Positions 2,198-25,573 of a DNA stretch of 26,061 nucleotides are shown in pieces. Both the position numbers and the translations under genes were made by a program. The number at the start of each line of letters is the position of its first letter. The first letter of the stretch is position 1. Source of the DNA: a virus; the IMG/VR virus record IMGVR_UViG_3300007735_000543, positions 1 to 26,061 of that record; one strand, written 5' to 3'. Under the pieces are notes generated by a model, which did no database searches, had not been told where the DNA came from, and saw only the letters and a list, made by a program, of their open reading frames with translations.

Positions 2198-3169
2198 TCA
2201 GTTTAAATTGTTTAAAATTTGTTGCCTCAATTGGTTTACCTTGTCAATGCGCAAAACATCGTTAAGGTATTGCCTTCCTTCTCTGACAATGTTTTCCCTG
2301 TCAAATGTCCTATCTTTCATGATGCGTAACACATCATTAAATTTATCGTATTTCAATACACCAGGTATATTATACTCTGGTATGCCAATAGGAGCAATAA
2401 CTACTCCTCCTGCGGCTAACATCTCAATAGCAAATATATTGCTTTTAGCTAAGTTAAAGTCATTCTTAAGTAACGGAAATACACCGTAGTGACATTGACT
2501 GTTATTTAATAATTCAAAGTAGCTAAATAAATTATTTGTCCATTCTTTCACATAAACCTTTGGGAATAAATGTCCCATTAAAAAGTCCTGTATTCCTAAC
2601 ATCGCCACCTCAAAGGTATTTGACTCTGCCATAATATTTATCTCATCCTTTATCGTTGCAATGTCATCAAGGTGATGCATACTTCCCCTCCATATAACTC
2701 TGACCTTGTCCTCTATCTTTGGCACTGGCATAAAAGGCTGTAATATTGGATTCCAAGCGTTAGGAATAACAAGGCTTGGGCATTCGTGAAAGCCTTTGTA
2801 ATATTCCTGTAAGGCAGGAGTAGAATAGCTAACAAAGTTAGCCATCGACAAACATTCCTCAACTGTCTTCTTTGATGCCTCTGTGGACAATGCCTTGTGC
2901 GATGGATTAACTCGCTCTGTTCTGTGCAAGTTATCGTCATGATCAATGATTATCTTCTTGCCCATGCGTTTACAGTCACGTAGCATATCAAGGTACAACT
3001 GTCCGTTAGGTGATTTAGCTATGATAACATCGCAGCTAAAAATATCATACCATTTTGTATTCTGTATGTCAAGGTACTTTACCTCATGTTCAAGATAACT
3101 ATATGTGCCAACTGTCCGATAGAAGTCGGTAGCAGGAGCCTCAATGTTTGTAAAAATGCCAAGTTTCAT
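2198..3169 (-). CDS. Glycosyltransferase-like protein (GT-B type), paralogue 2
   Basis: A 323-residue protein that appears to be a GT-B-type glycosyltransferase. It is clearly paralogous to the protein at 12666-13655: both share 'F(T)...ATD(F/Y)YR', 'RMGKK(I/V)IID(H/F)DD' (the N-terminal domain), a 'P(S/M)..VIPN(A/G)WNP' linker and 'KSNIFAIE' followed by '(I/F)PE(Y/F)NIPGV' in the C-terminal domain, the usual nucleotide-sugar region of GT4-like enzymes. I start at the ATG at 3169 because it gives MKLGIFTN, which aligns with the start of the paralogue, and lies 4 bases after the preceding stop; the longer frame from 3226 would overlap that gene by 53 bases. The acceptor is unknown; a virion protein or host surface glycan is possible. 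Confidence 0.65.
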   Translation of the reverse strand: MKLGIFTNIEAPATDFYRTVGTYSYLEHEVKYLDIQNTKWYDIFSCDVIIAKSPNGQLYLDMLRDCKRMGKKIIIDHDDNLHRTERVNPSHKALSTEASKKTVEECLSMANFVSYSTPALQEYYKGFHECPSLVIPNAWNPILQPFMPVPKIEDKVRVIWRGSMHHLDDIATIKDEINIMAESNTFEVAMLGIQDFLMGHLFPKVYVKEWTNNLFSYFELLNNSQCHYGVFPLLKNDFNLAKSNIFAIEMLAAGGVVIAPIGIPEYNIPGVLKYDKFNDVLRIMKDRTFDRENIVREGRQYLNDVLRIDKVNQLRQQILNNLN

Positions 3170-3173
3170 TGTG

Positions 3174-3398
3174 TTAGGTATTAAAAGGATTTGTTGGAAT
3201 AGGTGGTATATATTCTTTTTGCTCACATTCTAACAACCAATTAAAATCAGTTGTGGCAATAATTGCCTTGTCATCATCAGTCAAAAAAGTAAACCAAATG
3301 CCATTTATATCTTGCACACAATTTATAAATTGGTGTGGTGTATAAAATTTATTATATATAAAATTCTTTTGATTTTCAGTTAATTTGTATCCTATCAT
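3174..3398 (-). CDS. Small hypothetical protein
   Basis: A 74-residue acidic protein starting MIGYKLTENQ. Its core, 'FINCVQDINGIWFTFLTDDDK' broken over residues about 22-43, reads as alternating strands and turns, and the C-terminus 'EYIPPIPTNPF' is proline-rich. I do not recognise the family. The start overlaps the stop of the large head-closure fusion gene by 4 bases (ATGA), and the stop lies 4 bases before the glycosyltransferase-like start, so it is coupled to both. A small accessory or partner of the neighbouring long protein is possible, without direct support. Confidence 0.5.
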   Translation of the reverse strand: MIGYKLTENQKNFIYNKFYTPHQFINCVQDINGIWFTFLTDDDKAIIATTDFNWLLECEQKEYIPPIPTNPFNT

Positions 3399-5431
3399 AC
3401 TTGTCGATTAAGTGTTGTTTGAAATGCTTGTACTGCCGTATAAAAATTACTTGCATCTGTAGTTGTTAATCCATCCCCTATTGATGCAAATGCACATTGT
3501 TTTGTATTAAAAAATTCAGCATTATTATTTATACTGGCTGCAAGAATGTATACTTTAACATTGTTTCTTGACTCTGACAAGCTACCATTTGTAGCTGTAT
3601 TATTATTTCTTTTGCCAAATATTGATGTAGAACTTGTTCTTGAGGCTAAAAATAAGCCTTGTGAATTAGTTTCATTGACTCTTACTTGTGCGTCACTTGT
3701 CCCATTTGGATTATAATAAGTAAGTCCTCCACCATAGTGAATAGCTATTTGATTTGGATTTGTATAACCGCTACCATAACAACCTATATCGACTTTTGAT
3801 TCTGTTACTGCCGTACGAGAATAATAAGATAAATGACTTGAACCAGCACTATTGTGTAAAGATGGATTAAATCCAGTGTCCATGTACCCAGTTGTTCCGT
3901 TTGAAGTTATTCCATTTACACTATAAGTTATTGCGCCTCCAAATGTAGCAGTATAACTTGCTGATTTAAGATTTTGCGCACACGCAGCCGCGCTTGCTCC
4001 AACCATTGGATAAATAGCTTGCATTTTAGTCCATATTCCATTGGTTTTTAAATCGTTAATAAGTGTAGTAATTGCATTTTTTTCCGTTGTTGATAAACTT
4101 CCTCCAGCAGTTGTAACTCTTGCAAAGAAAGCCGCTGCATCACCATCTAATACATTTATATCAGATACCTGTGTTGCCGCTGCGTTTACACTTGCCGCTA
4201 CATTATCAACGGTGGTAAGCGTTGCACCTGTGATATTTGCACTTCCCGTAACACTTGCCGCCATCGTTGCCGTTCTAAACAAGTCAGCATTTGTACTTGT
4301 TGCCGTTGCTACCGCAGCTGCGACAAAGGTTACACCGATGCCAGCCTCTGCGCTACTGTTAGCAGTTGCCGTAGCACTTGCACTTATTATCCTTGTAATA
4401 AATGCATCTGCACTCGTTTGAGCCGTTGCCTCTGCCGCAGCGTTAACCGTGTAACTTAGTTGAGCATTAGCCGAAGTATTTGCCGTTGCCGTTGCATTAG
4501 CATTGACTGGTATAGTGATTTGTGCATCAGAAGATGTCTGAGCCGTAGCCGTAGCCGAAGCCTCAAGTACGCGCGTAAGTGTTGCAATGGCAGATGTATC
4601 AGCAGCCGTAGAAGGGCTACTTGCTAATGTAGCAATTCTTAGTATATCTGCCGTAGCTATGCCTGTTGCTGTAACACTTGCCTCAAATGTTACAAGACCT
4701 TGTTGTATAACATCAATGGCACTTGTAGCCGTAGCATTAGCAGTAAAGCTTGATGCTAATACTTTAGTAAGTTGGACATCTGCTGTGCTTGTAGCCGCAG
4801 CCTGTACGCTTGATGCAATATTTTCTACAATAGTAGCCGTTGCGCTAAGATTAGCACTTGCTGCTATGCTACTATTTATAGGAATAACTTTCGTAACATT
4901 TGCTGTAGATGTGCCATTGGCTAGAACAGAGGAAGCCACTTCGACAACACCTTGTTGTGCTGTTACAATTTCACCGATGGCAGAGGCAATAGCATTAGCC
5001 TGTCCAATAACAGACATTATTATTTTAAGATTAGCCGAAGTTGTAGCAATGCCTGTAACAGAGGCAGCTACGTTTACACCGGTAAGGATGTAGGAATCGT
5101 AGAACACACCTTGGAAGGAAATAAACCTTCTATCGTGACTAACTTTAATATTTTTAACTTGATATAACTTATCTCCCCACACTACACGAGATTCCTCTGT
5201 AATGGTGGATATATAACGAATGGTAAAATCACATACATTCTTTGCTGTGTTTTTACCATCTATAATAGTCTCATTTGATCCTGGTAACTTGCTTTCTGCA
5301 AATGCCCAGATAGTAGCCGTATCTGCCCAACTCTCGGAAGCAAAACCAGTTAAACTCCGTGACCGGTTAACATTCTGCAAGATAATCCTATCTCGCATTT
5401 TTCCAGTAACTTCGTTTTTGTTATACTTCAT
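3395..5431 (-). CDS. Head-closure protein fused to tandem repeats and adhesin-like C-terminus
   Basis: A 678-residue, three-part protein. Residues 1-115 look like a complete head-tail joining (SPP1 gp16/HK97-like head closure) protein: 'MRDRIILQN' start of the barrel, 'ESWADTATIWAFAE', 'DFTIRYISTI', 'WGDKLYQVKNI', 'RRFISFQGVFYD'. Residues about 119-427 are Ala/Thr/Ser-rich repeats, six of them exactly 20 residues long (291-410). Residues 428-678 form a different domain ('FFARVTTAGGSLSTTEK', 'GIWTKMQAIYPMVG', 'NGTTGYMDTGFNPS') of a type I associate with the ends of large tail or fibre proteins in Bacteroidota phages. The usual head-closure length is about 110, so the rest is an extension expected to project from the neck. 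It follows the gp6-type connector with a 1-base overlap, the normal place for head closure. Confidence 0.75.
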   Translation of the reverse strand: MKYNKNEVTGKMRDRIILQNVNRSRSLTGFASESWADTATIWAFAESKLPGSNETIIDGKNTAKNVCDFTIRYISTITEESRVVWGDKLYQVKNIKVSHDRRFISFQGVFYDSYILTGVNVAASVTGIATTSANLKIIMSVIGQANAIASAIGEIVTAQQGVVEVASSVLANGTSTANVTKVIPINSSIAASANLSATATIVENIASSVQAAATSTADVQLTKVLASSFTANATATSAIDVIQQGLVTFEASVTATGIATADILRIATLASSPSTAADTSAIATLTRVLEASATATAQTSSDAQITIPVNANATATANTSANAQLSYTVNAAAEATAQTSADAFITRIISASATATANSSAEAGIGVTFVAAAVATATSTNADLFRTATMAASVTGSANITGATLTTVDNVAASVNAAATQVSDINVLDGDAAAFFARVTTAGGSLSTTEKNAITTLINDLKTNGIWTKMQAIYPMVGASAAACAQNLKSASYTATFGGAITYSVNGITSNGTTGYMDTGFNPSLHNSAGSSHLSYYSRTAVTESKVDIGCYGSGYTNPNQIAIHYGGGLTYYNPNGTSDAQVRVNETNSQGLFLASRTSSTSIFGKRNNNTATNGSLSESRNNVKVYILAASINNNAEFFNTKQCAFASIGDGLTTTDASNFYTAVQAFQTTLNRQV
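4151..5077 (-). repeat. Tandem repeats coding for about fifteen 20-residue Ala/Thr/Ser-rich units
   Basis: This part of the fusion gene codes for about fifteen units of 17-23 residues. From residue 291 to 410 the phase is an exact 20 residues (60 bases): units begin ASATATAQTS, ANATATANTS, AAAEATAQTS, ASATATANSS, AAAVATATST and AASVTGSANI. Each unit is A-x-A-x-A-T-A-x-T-S, then A-D/N-A and a hydrophobic strand with one basic or polar residue. The alternation suggests stacked beta strands, as in fibrous or solenoid proteins. On the plus strand the repeats appear as recurrent gccgttgc-type motifs. Copy number may vary between related phages. Confidence 0.75.
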
Positions 5432-5991
5432 TATAATACTTGAACGCGATATTGGTCTAATAAATACTCTGATGCTGTTGGTAATCTTTTGACATAATCT
5501 TGTCTGTTATCGTAGGCATCTGTAACCATTAATAAAATGGCTTGTCTTATTTGTGCAGGTACACCAGATGGCTCTGTGCCGTAGCCTGCTGTATAGGTAA
5601 TGGTAACATCATTTATATTACCGTACAATGTCGGCCATGTTGAGCCGTATGCTAACGCTAATCTTGCAGGCTTTATAAAATTATCTACCACATAATTAGC
5701 AGCTGCAAATGTTTGTGTAGTATTATCACCATCCTTATATTGGAATGATGAAACAGCAATAACAGGAGATACCGATAAATAAATCGTAGGATCAGAAAGT
5801 TTGTCTAACTTCTCTGTAATAGTCTGAGTAATCAATGCCTGGTTAAGATAACTTTCAGCTGCCTGCCTTGCACTTTGCAACAAAGTAGAAATCAGATTAT
5901 CCTCTGTTGAATCATCAACTTTTAGATAATCTTTTACTTCTTGTAATGTGAAGATTTCTTTTGCAGGTGCCGTTGTTACTTTCCAAGCCAT
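5431..5991 (-). CDS. Head-tail connector protein, HK97 gp6-like
   Basis: A 186-residue protein with the recognisable start of gp6-type DNA-packaging/connector proteins: 'FTLQEVKDYLKVDDSTEDNLI' split over residues 15-35, followed by 'LLQSARQAAESYLNQALI' (about 38-55), the two helices that open the fold. A beta-rich middle ('IYLSVSPVIAVSSFQY') and a C-terminal helix ('IRQAILLMVTDAYDNRQ', about 149-165) complete it. Proteins of this family form a ring below the portal. It lies between capsid and head closure, the standard position. The length is within the range of fused gp6-like connectors. Confidence 0.8.
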   Translation of the reverse strand: MAWKVTTAPAKEIFTLQEVKDYLKVDDSTEDNLISTLLQSARQAAESYLNQALITQTITEKLDKLSDPTIYLSVSPVIAVSSFQYKDGDNTTQTFAAANYVVDNFIKPARLALAYGSTWPTLYGNINDVTITYTAGYGTEPSGVPAQIRQAILLMVTDAYDNRQDYVKRLPTASEYLLDQYRVQVL

Positions 5992-12665: not shown

Positions 12666-13655
12666 CTATATCCCTTTTAATATCTCCCATCGTTTCTTAT
12701 TCAGTAAGTCTATATGCAACACCTCCTTAACGTAACTCCTTCCTGCTTTAACGTTTGCTGCTTTGTCAATGTTGCCATTAACTATATCAGTAACTAATTG
12801 TAAAAACTGTGTAGGATTATCATAATGTATAACACCAGGTATATTAAACTCTGGGAAGTAATGATCTGCTAATACTGGCATACCATTAGCGATACACTCT
12901 ATGGCAAAGATATTACTTTTAGATAAGTTAAAATCATTACGAACTAATGGATAGAATCCAAAGTCACCTTCTATACGCTGCATAAATGTAAAGTAAACAA
13001 ACATAGAAGACCAATCAACATTAATAGCCTTCTTGTTTAAGTCATACATCATAAACTTATTTAAGCCAAAGAAAGTAACTTCTGTATCCATCTCTATCAT
13101 CTGATTTATTTCAGCCTTGATAGTATGTAAATCTGCAAAGTGTGTTGATCCTCCTCTCCATACAAACCTTGTAGGTGTGTGTCTTTCCTTTACTTCAAAC
13201 ATTGGTAAGTCAGTAGGATTCCAGCCATTAGGTATGACAAACATAGGTATCTTTCCCTGGCACATAGGATAGTACAAATCATATAACTTTCTTGTAGATA
13301 CTATGACAGCATCAGCAAATAGGAAAGTATCTTGTATTTGTTTCTGCACTTGTGGATTAGCAAAGTAATGATTAGCCGGATTATCCTCTGGCACATCCAA
13401 CAGATGATCATCAAAATCAATAATAACTTTCTTTCCCATCCTTTTCGCATCTGCCATTATTCCAAGTGATGCAGTTGAGTTAGGTCGTTGTATTAGGACA
13501 ATATCAGTGTTGTAAATGTCATGCCACTGCGCTCTTTCCTGTTGACAAATAACGTGTTCAAATTTCTTCTGTAAAGCTAACCTTGTAAATGGGCCAAGTG
13601 ACCGATAATAATCAGTTGCCTGACTTTTAGATGATGTGAATGTGGTTAACTTCAT
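12666..13655 (-). CDS. Glycosyltransferase-like protein (GT-B type), paralogue 1
   Basis: A 329-residue protein with a GT-B-like two-domain plan. The N-terminal half has 'FTSSKSQATDYYRSLGP' and 'AKRMGKKVIIDFDDHLL' (residues about 87-103), the middle has 'VIPNGWNPTDLPMF', and the C-terminal half has 'NDFNLSKSNIFAIECIANGMPVLADH' across residues about 244-269, which resembles the donor-sugar region of GT4 enzymes. It is homologous throughout to the protein at 2198-3169. The ATG at 13655 overlaps the TGA of the RHH-like gene (ATGA), so translation is coupled. Substrate unknown; a virion component or a host surface sugar are the main options. Confidence 0.68.
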   Translation of the reverse strand: MKLTTFTSSKSQATDYYRSLGPFTRLALQKKFEHVICQQERAQWHDIYNTDIVLIQRPNSTASLGIMADAKRMGKKVIIDFDDHLLDVPEDNPANHYFANPQVQKQIQDTFLFADAVIVSTRKLYDLYYPMCQGKIPMFVIPNGWNPTDLPMFEVKERHTPTRFVWRGGSTHFADLHTIKAEINQMIEMDTEVTFFGLNKFMMYDLNKKAINVDWSSMFVYFTFMQRIEGDFGFYPLVRNDFNLSKSNIFAIECIANGMPVLADHYFPEFNIPGVIHYDNPTQFLQLVTDIVNGNIDKAANVKAGRSYVKEVLHIDLLNKKRWEILKGI

Positions 13656-13873: not shown

Positions 13874-14260
13874 ATGATAAAATTAATCGTTTCGGGAAGA
13901 GTAGGACAAGACGCTGAATTAAAAAGCGTTGGTGACACTACTGTATGTTCATTTAGTGTAGCTCACACTGAAAAGGTGTATGGCCCTAATCCATCAGAGA
14001 AAACAATCTGGGTAGGTTGTAATATTTGGGGAGAAAGAGGAGAAAAGTTAAAGCCATTCATTATTAAAGGCACTTACATAGTAGTTGAAGGAAGTGGTGG
14101 AGTTAATGCTTATTCACAAAAGAATGGAGAGCCAGCCGCTGTTATTAATTGCCGCGTGACTTCCCTTGAGTTTGGTGGAAAGCCTACCGCAGAACCTACA
14201 CCATTAACCACGATGCCTCCAGTTGGCAAGGTTGACATGGATGGTGATTTACCATTTTAA
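13874..14260 (+). CDS. ssb: Single-stranded DNA-binding protein
   Basis: A 128-residue SSB. The OB-fold part runs from 'MIKLIVSGRVGQDAELKSV' through 'VCSFSVAHTEKV', 'KTIWVGCNIWGERGEKL', 'FIIKGTYIVVEGSGGVNAY' to 'INCRVTSLEF' (residues 1-102). A Pro/Thr-rich linker leads to the acidic tip 'MDGDLPF', the standard SSB tail that recruits replication and repair partners. It coats single-stranded DNA during phage replication. It is the first gene after the rightward promoter, so it is made early. The length is short for a bacterial SSB but normal for phage versions. Confidence 0.93.
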   Translation: MIKLIVSGRVGQDAELKSVGDTTVCSFSVAHTEKVYGPNPSEKTIWVGCNIWGERGEKLKPFIIKGTYIVVEGSGGVNAYSQKNGEPAAVINCRVTSLEFGGKPTAEPTPLTTMPPVGKVDMDGDLPF

Positions 14261-14281: not shown

Positions 14282-15082
14282 ATGAAAAAAAACACTTTCG
14301 AATGGGAGATAATAACTCCCATCACACCAACTAAAACAAAAATTAAAGGCTATTTGCTTTTATTTATGATTGTTTCTTCCGTGTTCATCTCCCTTGTTGG
14401 ACAAGGCTACAAAGCTACAAAGGTATCAGCTCCTAATCCTGCAAACGAATATCCGCAAGATAATTGGGAGACTATTGATATGAATAATCTACCAGGTAAG
14501 CAGATAAAAAACATGGATACAGAGGAGTTAAGAGTATTTTTAGAGGAACAAGGCTTTAGAAGATTACAGAATAAAAGTCTGGTAGAGTTAAGACGAATTT
14601 GGTTAGGCTTTATGTATGAAGATTTTTTTTACACGATGCACAAGAAAACAGATCTTCCTATCTCTGTTATCTATGCCTTCTTTATCATTGAGGCTACCAA
14701 TGCCGGAATAGAAAGTAAGTTGATGGCAAAGGCACTTAATCCTGGTGGAATTAAATACAGAGGCACCGGTAAGAAGATGAATGCGATGGATGATTGCTAC
14801 AAGAATGGTAAAAAGATACCTTGCGCCTTCCAGGCTTTCTCTTCCTACAATGCCATGGTGCAAGGTTGGGCAGATGTTTTAAACTTACCGAGATATAAGA
14901 ATTGCAAGAGATTTGTGTTTAGTAAATACAACAGAGGCATGAGCGCAAAGCAGATAGTAGATGCTACTTGTAAATGCTTTTATAAGTCTGGATACCACAC
15001 AAGTAATCTGTGGAAAGTAAGGTCTAATTTATCAACAGAATACTGGACAGTTAAAGCCAGTTTCCCCGAAATGGAATATTAA
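14282..15082 (+). CDS. Membrane-anchored glucosaminidase-like lysin (GH73-like)
   Basis: A 266-residue protein with an N-terminal cytoplasmic stretch, one membrane segment at residues about 23-42 (YLLLFMIVSSVFISLVGQG) and a GH73/N-acetylglucosaminidase-like domain from about 110. The putative catalytic glutamate is E137 in 'YAFFIIEATNAGIESKLMAK' (131-150), followed by 'ALNPGGIKYRG' and 'AFQAFSSYNAMVQGWADVL', the family's usual segments, and 'RYKNCKRF'. It should cut peptidoglycan glycan strands. The hydrophobic segment is short and rich in Ser, Gly and Val, which would also fit a signal-arrest-release anchor. It lies in the early rightward cluster right after SSB, rather than in a late lysis cassette. 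Confidence 0.72.
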   Translation: MKKNTFEWEIITPITPTKTKIKGYLLLFMIVSSVFISLVGQGYKATKVSAPNPANEYPQDNWETIDMNNLPGKQIKNMDTEELRVFLEEQGFRRLQNKSLVELRRIWLGFMYEDFFYTMHKKTDLPISVIYAFFIIEATNAGIESKLMAKALNPGGIKYRGTGKKMNAMDDCYKNGKKIPCAFQAFSSYNAMVQGWADVLNLPRYKNCKRFVFSKYNRGMSAKQIVDATCKCFYKSGYHTSNLWKVRSNLSTEYWTVKASFPEMEY

Positions 15083-15083
15083 A

Positions 15084-15359
15084 ATGATTAAGATAACAAA
15101 AATGACACCTGTTGAATGGCTTGAAATGGATTTCAAAGAATGCTATGATTGGGATCAAAGCGTAGAAAATACTTTTAATAAAGCTAAACAGTTTGAATTT
15201 GATATTATGGATGAATTTGGTAAATTTATTTACGACAAAAAATTTATTTTTAATAATGAAAATAATTGCTTGGAAAGTGTATGTCATAATTGGAAATATA
15301 ATACACTAAGCGGTTTATATAAATATTTTTTAAGAGAAAGAAACAAATACAATGATTGA
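15084..15359 (+). CDS. Hypothetical protein
   Basis: A 91-residue acidic and aromatic protein starting MIKITKMTPVEWLEMDF. The first 50 residues look helical ('NTFNKAKQFEFDIMDEFGKF'), the last part is mixed and ends 'YKYFLRERNKYND'. No known motif is visible. It begins one base after the lysin stop and overlaps the methyltransferase start by 8 bases, so it is translated as part of this cluster. Confidence 0.55.
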   Translation: MIKITKMTPVEWLEMDFKECYDWDQSVENTFNKAKQFEFDIMDEFGKFIYDKKFIFNNENNCLESVCHNWKYNTLSGLYKYFLRERNKYND

Positions 15360-15945
15360 TAACAAATTCTTTTTTGACAAATCAGTAGAACTTGGCTTTA
15401 CAACGCGTAATTATGAATCACTTGTAAATCTGCACATTAATGGTGCAAGAACATTGCAGATAATGGGCTGCAAAAGTGTGTTTGAGTTTGGTAGTGGGTT
15501 AGGTTTCTTTTTATCTGCCTGCCAAAGGATCGGTTTATATAATTATGTTGGCTATGATATTAATCCTTATGAAAGAGACTTTGCTATAAGTAAAGGTATT
15601 GAGCCATCTAAATATACTTTAGCAAAAGATAAGTTTAAATTATCTGGTAAGTATGATGCTATTTATTCTACTGAAGTCTTTGAACACATGGTAGATGGAG
15701 AACTAAATGCTGTTTTGCCTAAATTATACAAAGCCTGTAATAAGTATTTTTATTTTACATCTACTCCTTTTACATCTACTATTCCAGAATGGGACATTGA
15801 ATGGGGACATATAAACATTAAGCAAAAAGACGAATGGATAGCATTGTTTAAAAAGCATGGCTTTGACTATTTACAAGATGCTACTGATGTGTGTTCCTGG
15901 GGATTGTTATTTAAAAAGAATGAGAATCATGCAAAAGGTAAGTAA
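15352..15945 (+). CDS. Class I SAM-dependent methyltransferase
   Basis: A 197-residue methyltransferase. Motif I is 'SVFEFGSGLGFFLSA' (residues 42-56, with the glycine-rich loop 47-51), the acidic residue after strand 2 is D69 in 'VGYDINPY', and 'YDAIYSTEVFEHMVDG' (about 100-115) is the motif IV region of small-molecule type methyltransferases. There is no NPPY/DPPY motif, so it is unlikely to be a DNA adenine or N4-cytosine methyltransferase, and no PCQ motif of C5 enzymes is seen. The substrate is unknown; sugar or protein O/N-methylation are options. It overlaps the next gene slightly. Confidence 0.78.
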   Translation: MIDNKFFFDKSVELGFTTRNYESLVNLHINGARTLQIMGCKSVFEFGSGLGFFLSACQRIGLYNYVGYDINPYERDFAISKGIEPSKYTLAKDKFKLSGKYDAIYSTEVFEHMVDGELNAVLPKLYKACNKYFYFTSTPFTSTIPEWDIEWGHINIKQKDEWIALFKKHGFDYLQDATDVCSWGLLFKKNENHAKGK

Positions 15946-24910: not shown

Positions 24911-25573
24911 ATGATAAAAACAAAACAAATGAAAGTAGAACTTTTAGACACATTTGGCAACGATGACATGGTAGCCAATGCTGCCCGTGTGTCCTTCGGC
25001 AAAGAAGCCAGTAATTACACGGTTGAGCAGAATGCAAAGCTGATAAAATACCTTGCAGAACACAACCATACTTCTCCCTTTCGCCATCCACAGTTACAGT
25101 ACCGGATCACCTGCCCTATCTTTGTGGAAAGGCAGTTATTTAAGCACCAGGTAGGATTGACTGCTAATAGTATTTCTGGCAGATATGTAGACTTCCAGGA
25201 TAACTATTATAAGATAGAAGACTTTAGATTACAGAGCAAAAGTAGTAAGCAAGGCAGCCAAGGACATTTAGAGATGTACGATAATGATGCAGCACTAATG
25301 ATACAAGATGCTGTAATTAATTATTGCTCTACTGCTTACCATGAACTGTTGCAGCTGGGAGTAGCAAAGGAACAAGCGCGCACTATTTTGCCATTAAATT
25401 TAGAAACAACATTTATTTGGACTGGCAGTTTATTAGCTTACATCAACTTTTGGAAGCTAAGAATCACACGAGATACACAATTTGAAACAATGCAGATTGC
25501 TATGGATATGTTGTGTGAATTAAAATTGCGTTCTAATTGTTTTCAATACTCTTTAAAAGCATTTCATATATGA
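24911..25573 (+). CDS. thyX: Flavin-dependent thymidylate synthase
   Basis: A 220-residue ThyX that makes dTMP from dUMP with methylene-tetrahydrofolate, FAD and NADPH. Signs are 'MVANAARVSFG' (residues 20-30), 'LAEHNHTSPFRHPQLQYRI' (48-66), 'PIFVERQLFKHQ' (69-80) with the motif region 'VGLTANSISGRYVDF' (81-95), and the C-terminal 'KEQARTILPLNLETTFIWTG' zone. The usual RHR is KHQ here and the spacing to the signature Ser is one residue longer than in the classical RHRx7S motif, as in some phage relatives I recall. The start at 24911 gives MIKTKQM; M7 at 24929 is an alternative. It is the first gene after the tRNA-like pair. Confidence 0.88.
   Translation: MIKTKQMKVELLDTFGNDDMVANAARVSFGKEASNYTVEQNAKLIKYLAEHNHTSPFRHPQLQYRITCPIFVERQLFKHQVGLTANSISGRYVDFQDNYYKIEDFRLQSKSSKQGSQGHLEMYDNDAALMIQDAVINYCSTAYHELLQLGVAKEQARTILPLNLETTFIWTGSLLAYINFWKLRITRDTQFETMQIAMDMLCELKLRSNCFQYSLKAFHI

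Follow-up and report, generated by a model that had tools for sequence, protein, structure and literature searches.

A head-closure protein extended by a repeat stalk and an exchangeable tip, a probable neck-fibre base in HK97-like siphophages

Head-closure proteins of family PF05521 (Hc1), such as SPP1 gp16, HK97 gp7 and 80alpha gp50, are usually about 110 residues long, and the Hc1 hexamer of 80alpha plugs into the adaptor ring while clamping that of the terminator (accessible part of PMC11661146). In the lactococcal 936 phages, the neck carries carbohydrate-binding modules (CBMs) in a neck passage structure (NPS) with a constant N-terminus and seven C-terminal groups, one of which was shown to bind host cells weakly; according to the available portion of that report, the NPS occurs in only part of the phages and is generally exclusive with other adhesin decorations (PMC6669499). 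Cyanophage A-1(L) has long neck fibres that end in a carbohydrate-binding-type module, and in podophage GP4 a fibril (PDB 8JOU, chain g) links the adhesin to the nozzle collar, as far as excerpts of the two reports describe them (PMC10966104 and PMC13243795, respectively). Here, we describe a gene in a virus sequence of 26,061 nucleotides (IMG/VR record IMGVR_UViG_3300007735_000543, positions 1 to 26,061; hereafter the window) whose frame joins a complete Hc1 domain of the SPP1 gp16 type to 20-residue repeats and a predicted concanavalin-A-like (ConA) lectin domain. This fusion is probably the phage's only head-closure ring subunit and, at the same time, the foot of a neck fibre that binds the host. 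The virus may thus be able to hold its host at the neck as well as at the tail.

The fusion agrees with SPP1 gp16, HK97 gp7 and 80alpha gp50 in the family and predicted fold of its N-terminal 114 residues, in a gene order running from the adaptor through Hc1 to the terminator and tail tube, and in its single copy; however, the matched structures have about 100-130 residues and no fibre, whereas complete fusions span 478-737 residues. Like the 936 NPS, it would be a siphophage neck appendage with a constant base and several unrelated C-terminal ends of sugar-binding type, present in only part of the phages. Unlike the NPS, a separate protein around the neck with a BppU-like N-terminus, its base is a head-closure ring protein with its own adaptor and terminator variants, and the BppU family is not among the Pfam or PHROG matches of the fusion, whose N-terminus is Hc1. 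By this comparison, the fusion would work like the 936 NPS without being a member of it, its base being a different protein. The A-1(L) fibres are similar in being long and in ending in a carbohydrate-binding-type module, which is predicted here from genes; they differ in consisting of three separate proteins on a 15-mer neck ring of a phage with a contractile tail, and their distal module showed no host binding in the accessible part of the report (PMC10966104). GP4 is a podophage, unlike the window phage with its HK97-like siphophage gene order, but a 132-residue gene beside the fibre encodes a clear homologue of GP4 fibre I gp80 (PF23140, PDB 8jou). Another known connector ring protein has an outward lectin-type domain, but it is an adaptor rather than a head-closure protein, with a 101-residue insert and no stalk. 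No report of a fibre-bearing head-closure protein was found in the openly licensed literature (titles and starts of abstracts; subscription journals lie mostly outside it).

Domains of the fusion and its relatives

The fusion gene is a single open frame of 678 residues on the minus strand, running from an ATG at 5431 to a stop at 3395-3397; the initial annotation had given these coordinates (3395-5431) correctly. Residues 1-114 (5090-5431, minus) form the Hc1 domain: PF05521 (Phage_HCP) matches residues 10-103 (E 4.5e-14; 53.3 bits against a cut-off of 25), and PHROG 25 ("head closure Hc1", E 3.2e-13) and NCBIfam TIGR01563 (gp16_SPP1; 25.3 bits against a cut-off of 20.6) match the same stretch. 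The top Foldseek matches of this part, for which model confidence is modest, are neck proteins or isolated relatives (2kz4, 7z4w, 9rks, 6tba, 8fwe and 9mu3), and the predicted fold resembles the neck rings of SPP1 gp16, the gene transfer agent, Milano, SaPI1/80alpha and others. By the sequence of its first 114 residues, the predicted protein is a member of the Hc1 family; its total length departs from the usual one of about 110 residues, which is a customary length and not a functional criterion. The in-frame extension comprises 564 residues, close to the 560 claimed earlier.

The stalk, residues 115-424 (4160-5089, minus), has a 20-residue period (z = 9.4, 8.1 and 6.7 at lags of 20, 40 and 60, against 300 shuffles) and is rich in Ala (25%), Thr (16%) and Ser (12%). 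The period had been noted before, together with a count of about fifteen repeats; we count about 14. The repeats are modelled as regular short strands, in a full-length model of low confidence that was drawn on solely for this strand pattern and the Hc1 part. The tip, residues 425-678 plus the stop (3395-4159, minus), is matched by PHROG 17104 of unknown function (residues 425-666, E 1.1e-12). Modelled separately, it gave a ConA-like jelly-roll fold (predicted local distance difference test, pLDDT, 85; predicted template modelling score 0.81). Foldseek returned 90 PDB matches at E values up to 0.001, and the 50 listed are mostly proteins with ConA-like, LamG or CBM lectin domains, with low template modelling scores of 0.27-0.47 by query; no sequence-level match of the tip to a solved structure was found. 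Structure prediction part by part, which had been proposed as a check, gives a neck-ring fold and a ConA-like lectin fold for the two ends, and we regard sugar binding by the tip as putative. The domain had also been described as one seen elsewhere at the ends of tail or fibre proteins. In the 76 complete relatives of the tip it does close the protein (in 73 it includes the last residue), but in 70 of them the part ahead of it is shorter than 40 residues, so that most are stand-alone proteins of about 265 residues and the domain is mostly not the end of a longer fibre protein.

Comparison with relatives that lack the extension showed the two forms of Hc1, plain and extended, replacing each other at one position in near-identical phages. 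In a capsid-protein scan, 80 of 217 relatives were kept, with capsid proteins 84-97% identical to that of the window; of these 80, 27 are extended and 38 plain, the plain Hc1 being 114 residues long and 38-42% identical to the fused type; another 2 break off inside Hc1, and 13 are on contigs ending short of the gene. Both types occur among phages with 97% identical capsid proteins. A whole-protein scan gave 43 loci with the joined frame, in which Hc1 and stalk are common as far as the contigs reach and the tips vary. Four further loci (L243, L245, L250 and L251) have a plain Hc1 of 117 residues that is 69-71% identical to the fused type and ends at the fusion point. In six pairwise DNA alignments, the similarity of 83-94% stops about 64 nucleotides into Hc1 in plain-extended pairs and resumes at the gene for a 205-residue protein or at the terminator gene; extended loci add a companion gene, sometimes a glycosyltransferase gene, and the 132-residue gene, none of which stands between Hc1 and the 205-residue gene in the 10 plain loci laid out.

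A frameshift near residues 115-120 or a misassembly joining two genes, raised at the outset as what could overturn the fusion, might be read into one relative (L253, on the same contig as L389), whose frame is interrupted at 158 residues. The joined frame recurs in the 43 loci above and in 53 of 97 scored loci, a set restricted to loci whose Hc1 could be scored and whose adaptor was covered to at least 85%, with some contigs entered twice; together with the plain 117-residue homologues, this rules out such an artefact for all practical purposes. Among named phages, no direct DNA relative was found, and the protein matches (23 records) are to the tip alone or to Hc1 alone. A genome contig collection searched with the fusion protein and the terminase contained no relative, and hence indicated no host.

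The fusion as the probable working neck ring

The window has the gene order of an HK97-like siphophage (terminase, portal, protease, capsid, adaptor, fusion, small genes, 205-residue gene, terminator and tail tube), and the fusion lies between adaptor and terminator, as expected for Hc1. PF05521 was found once per genome in all 23 plain and extended genomes tested; a second, plain Hc1 elsewhere in the genome was sought as an alternative ring subunit and was absent from all 23.

Co-variation with Hc1 type was examined in 66 loci deduplicated by adaptor sequence, comparing pairs with major capsid proteins (MCPs) at least 93% identical; this set also required the MCP, and left out the window's own copy (L044) and repeated adaptors, and thereby the three plain loci of the fibre-type lineage. 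The head-tail adaptor ring protein (5431-5991, minus; PF05135, PHROG 442) had a median identity of 95.1% between loci of the same Hc1 type and 79.6% between loci of different types. For the tail terminator ring protein (744-1133, minus; PF11367, E 2.5e-15; PHROG 347), the medians were 92.2% and 72.1%, with ranges that do not overlap. No such difference was seen in the portal (94.2% and 93.6%), the MCP (96.3% and 96.1%) or the major tail protein (MTP; 98.6% in both). Likewise, the fewest changes of Hc1 type were one each on the adaptor and terminator trees, as against 12 on the portal tree and 14 and 10 on the MCP and MTP trees, respectively; on these last two, weak resolution may have inflated the counts.

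The two co-varying proteins are those that Hc1 should touch, given the contacts in 80alpha. Simple linkage is insufficient as the cause, because the 205-residue gene lying between Hc1 and the terminator gene (1130-1747, minus) does not follow type: its variant A occurs in 15 of the 31 extended loci and in 16 of the 44 plain ones. The two variants of this gene (that of the window and that at L049 7072-7656) are about 34% identical and assort freely with respect to Hc1 type. On these gene comparisons, the fusion is most likely the working neck ring, since it is the sole Hc1 and travels with a matching adaptor and terminator. The alternation of Hc1 types, each with its own matching partners, is the behaviour expected of a ring protein in contact with both. 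A crown of six to twelve fibres had been envisaged for this ring; the corresponding 80alpha/SaPI1 ring is a hexamer in the accessible part of PMC11661146, which argues for six chains, either free or as two trimers.

Exchangeable tips and a fibre cassette also found on another anchor

Among 38 full-length fusions, tips assigned by sequence signatures (L020 by a looser rule) comprised 24 Gly-rich, 5 arabinofuranosidase-like, 4 LamG, 3 ConA-type and 2 propeller-like repeat tips. PF21722 was found in all four Gly-rich tips scanned, PF09206 in two of three arabinofuranosidase-like tips (L031 and L037; not L033), PF13385 in both LamG tips scanned and PF21959 in the one propeller-like tip scanned (L110). 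On the Hc1 tree, a minimum of 11 changes of tip type is needed, and on a tree of Hc1 plus stalk a minimum of 6; the second tree has 30 rows, eight fusions with divergent stalks (L281, L276, L104, L232, L031, L035, L036 and L037) having been left out. For example, the window and L255 have identical Hc1 domains (100%) and are 92% identical over the first 400 residues (Hc1 and stalk), but have ConA and Gly-rich tips, respectively.

The next gene follows the tip. A 74-residue companion (3174-3398, minus, in the window) accompanies the ConA tip in all three full-length family members, a PHROG 7759-like gene stands next to 22 of 24 Gly-rich tips, a gene of 79-82 residues next to 4 of 5 arabinofuranosidase-like tips, and a gene of 278-287 residues next to both propeller tips. 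In the LamG class, a glycosyltransferase gene is directly next in three of four cases, and the remaining one has no next gene in reach. The glycosyltransferase-like protein of the window (2198-3169, minus; PHROG 7162, E 1.7e-21) has 323 residues counted from the ATG of its relatives, in a 342-residue frame that opens at 3226. We considered it as an essential part of the cassette and rejected this, as four fibre-bearing loci (L023, L033, L069 and L001) are without the gene. A second glycosyltransferase-like gene (12666-13655, minus) is about 37% identical to the first; the two flank the structural module, the first lying inside the fibre cassette, and the Ser/Thr-rich stalk is a possible substrate of their products.

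The exchange of tips fits a binding fibre. One could read the tips instead as enzymes or depolymerase aids that trim surface polysaccharide at the neck, a reading in line with the PF09206 (ArabFuran-catal) matches (E 9e-8 and 6.5e-8) and with the resemblance of the ConA tip to a domain of the arabinanase AbnA. The PF09206 matches, however, reach only 78 of 315 profile positions, the Gly-rich and LamG tips do not belong to enzyme families, and AbnA is matched in its domain 4 (entry 5hon), which we take to lie apart from the catalytic domain; an enzymatic tip is accordingly quite improbable.

The 132-residue gene (1793-2191, minus) matches PF23140 (E 3.7e-24; 85.9 bits against a cut-off of 27) and chain a of PDB 8jou (E 1.1e-11). 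All 14 extended genomes tested have it, and none of the 11 plain ones does. Of 67 further loci that carry this gp80-like gene, 40 have an Hc1 in reach, and every one of these frames runs past 150 residues (that of L389 is interrupted at 158); the other 27 have no Hc1 in reach or belong to a second, unrelated phage group. This constancy bears on whether the extension is removed, or whether the fusion acts outside the particle, for instance on the host surface. Such a fate would be compatible with a group known from genes alone, but no fibre lineage has given up the extension and its co-occurrence with the gp80-like gene is perfect, so that we hold it to be very unlikely; as the fusion is the only Hc1 in the genome, the particle must contain its N-terminal part at the least.

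In the unrelated group (25 loci, several of them near-duplicates), the same stalk, tips, companions and gp80-like gene stand behind a different N-terminal domain of 157 residues (L369 8022-9764; L411 7976-9595; also L415-L439). These phages have a different terminase family, and PF05521 was absent from all five genomes tested. The frame is complete in 24 of the 25 loci; all are extended and all are followed by the gp80-like gene, which in L439 is a partial frame. The tips are 4 ConA, 9 Gly-rich, 10 arabinofuranosidase-like, 1 propeller and 1 cut, and the companions match them in 9/9 Gly-rich, 10/10 arabinofuranosidase-like, 1/1 propeller and 2/4 ConA cases. L411 and L281, the latter from the window's group, have one stretch of 1,489 nucleotides in common at 93.8% identity and nothing else at threshold in their loci of about 20 kb. 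The 157-residue anchor has no Pfam, PHROG or PDB relative, and profile comparisons with the terminator, adaptor and Hc1 were not significant; its position ahead of the tail genes suggests a ring protein of the neck or a terminator. L378 and L379 belong to a third, distant group, which has its own Hc1 fusion of 514 residues, with a tail tube 47% and an adaptor 41% identical. As judged from these gene comparisons, stalk end, tip, companion and gp80-like gene form a cassette that passes from phage to phage and is not tied to a single anchor protein.

The gene directly after the portal gene encodes a relative of the ConA tip in Flavobacterium phage FL-1 (L047, 5001-5333) and Microcystis phage Mwe-JY13 (L045, 2505-3230), and head-side use of the domain may therefore be wider. 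Related tips in Flavobacterium phages would point to a host among the Bacteroidota, which is no more than a guess. Other genes of the window encode single-stranded DNA-binding protein (13874-14260), a glucosaminidase-like protein (14282-15082), a methyltransferase (15352-15945) and, on the plus strand, the flavin-dependent thymidylate synthase Thy1 (24911-25573).

A putative host-binding fibre at the neck

In plain genomes, the tail-tip genes are often followed by one for a protein containing an S74 chaperone domain and by another of 200 residues. Among contigs holding both Hc1 and the gene behind the S74 module, the S74 fibre is present in 7 of 10 plain and 0 of 13 extended ones; three more contigs found via the 200-residue gene have plain Hc1, and one extended genome (G002) has a distant relative (26%) of that gene. 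Fisher's test on 0/10 versus 7/10 gave p = 0.003 with kinship ignored. After correction for kinship, six independent pairs remained (3 opposite, 0 same, 3 undecided; p = 0.25). The mutual exclusion of S74 tail fibre and neck fibre is only suggestive, because it is not significant after this correction. In the tail regions of L207 and L206, the putative tail-tip and S74 proteins (691-1276 and 419-462 residues) start with signal-peptide-like or membrane-like stretches; such starts are unusual for virion proteins, and export or membrane binding before assembly is possible.

We infer the position of the fusion in the ring, the outward course of the fibres, their number (six copies or two trimers), sugar binding and the roles of the companions. 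After DNA packaging, six subunits would assemble as a ring with the adaptor (a 12-mer) on one side and the terminator (a hexamer) on the other, on the model of 80alpha/SaPI1, and their C-termini would exit outward as stalks, either six single chains or two trimers. The tips may bind cell-surface sugars with avidity, and once bound they would hold or orient the particle before, or besides, contact of the tail tip. The gp80-like protein may link or brace the stalks, and the small companion product could help the matching tip to fold, or cap it.

The earlier proposal of a ring of Hc1 subunits bearing binding fibres at the neck is supported by the alternation of plain and extended forms in one slot, by the matched adaptor and terminator and by the exchangeable tips. 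Several points weigh against it. Linkage could account for part of the co-variation of the adaptor, whose gene is adjacent, though less so for the terminator; the MCP and MTP sequences are very alike, which weakens the resolution of the trees built from them; the full-length model, with a mean pLDDT of 43.6, is poor and makes any stalk shape or oligomeric state tentative; and the system is known here from genes, all relatives being metagenomic contigs. Alternatively, the extension might be a whisker like T4 fibritin, serving the neck in a structural or sensing capacity (for assembly, for protection, to hold other fibres or to sense the environment), and not a receptor-binding fibre. Neck fibres need not bind hosts: the terminal sugar-binding module of the A-1(L) fibre did not do so in the available part of PMC10966104, which also counts against a host-binding fibre here. 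However, five tip types swapped on one base with matched companions are the usual signature of host-range selection, whereas a purely structural whisker should stay constant, and the S74 tail fibre is absent from the fibre-bearing genomes (0 of 13, against 7 of 10 plain ones). A whisker role is therefore unlikely, and a host-binding fibre based on the head-closure ring is favoured.

A further step is tentative: a portable fibre cassette, made up of stalk, exchangeable tip, matched companion and gp80-like gene, may have been grafted onto whichever neck ring protein was available (Hc1 in two related groups, the 157-residue anchor in another), and its takers may have lost the tail-tip S74 fibre, with primary host recognition shifting from the tail tip to the neck.

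In siphoviruses, the tail tip is where receptor binding is normally sought, and head-closure proteins pass for invariable plumbing; here, the ring itself appears to bear an adhesin. The label "head closure protein" given by annotation tools would then hide a host-range determinant, one that predictions confined to tail genes would overlook. Since the group contains near-identical phages that have the fibre and others that lack it, each with matched rings, it offers a natural test of which contacts in the neck have to change in concert once the ring is remodelled, and of whether neck binding can replace tail-tip binding. The portable cassette may likewise supply ready natural chimeras for studying how a fibre is joined to a ring.

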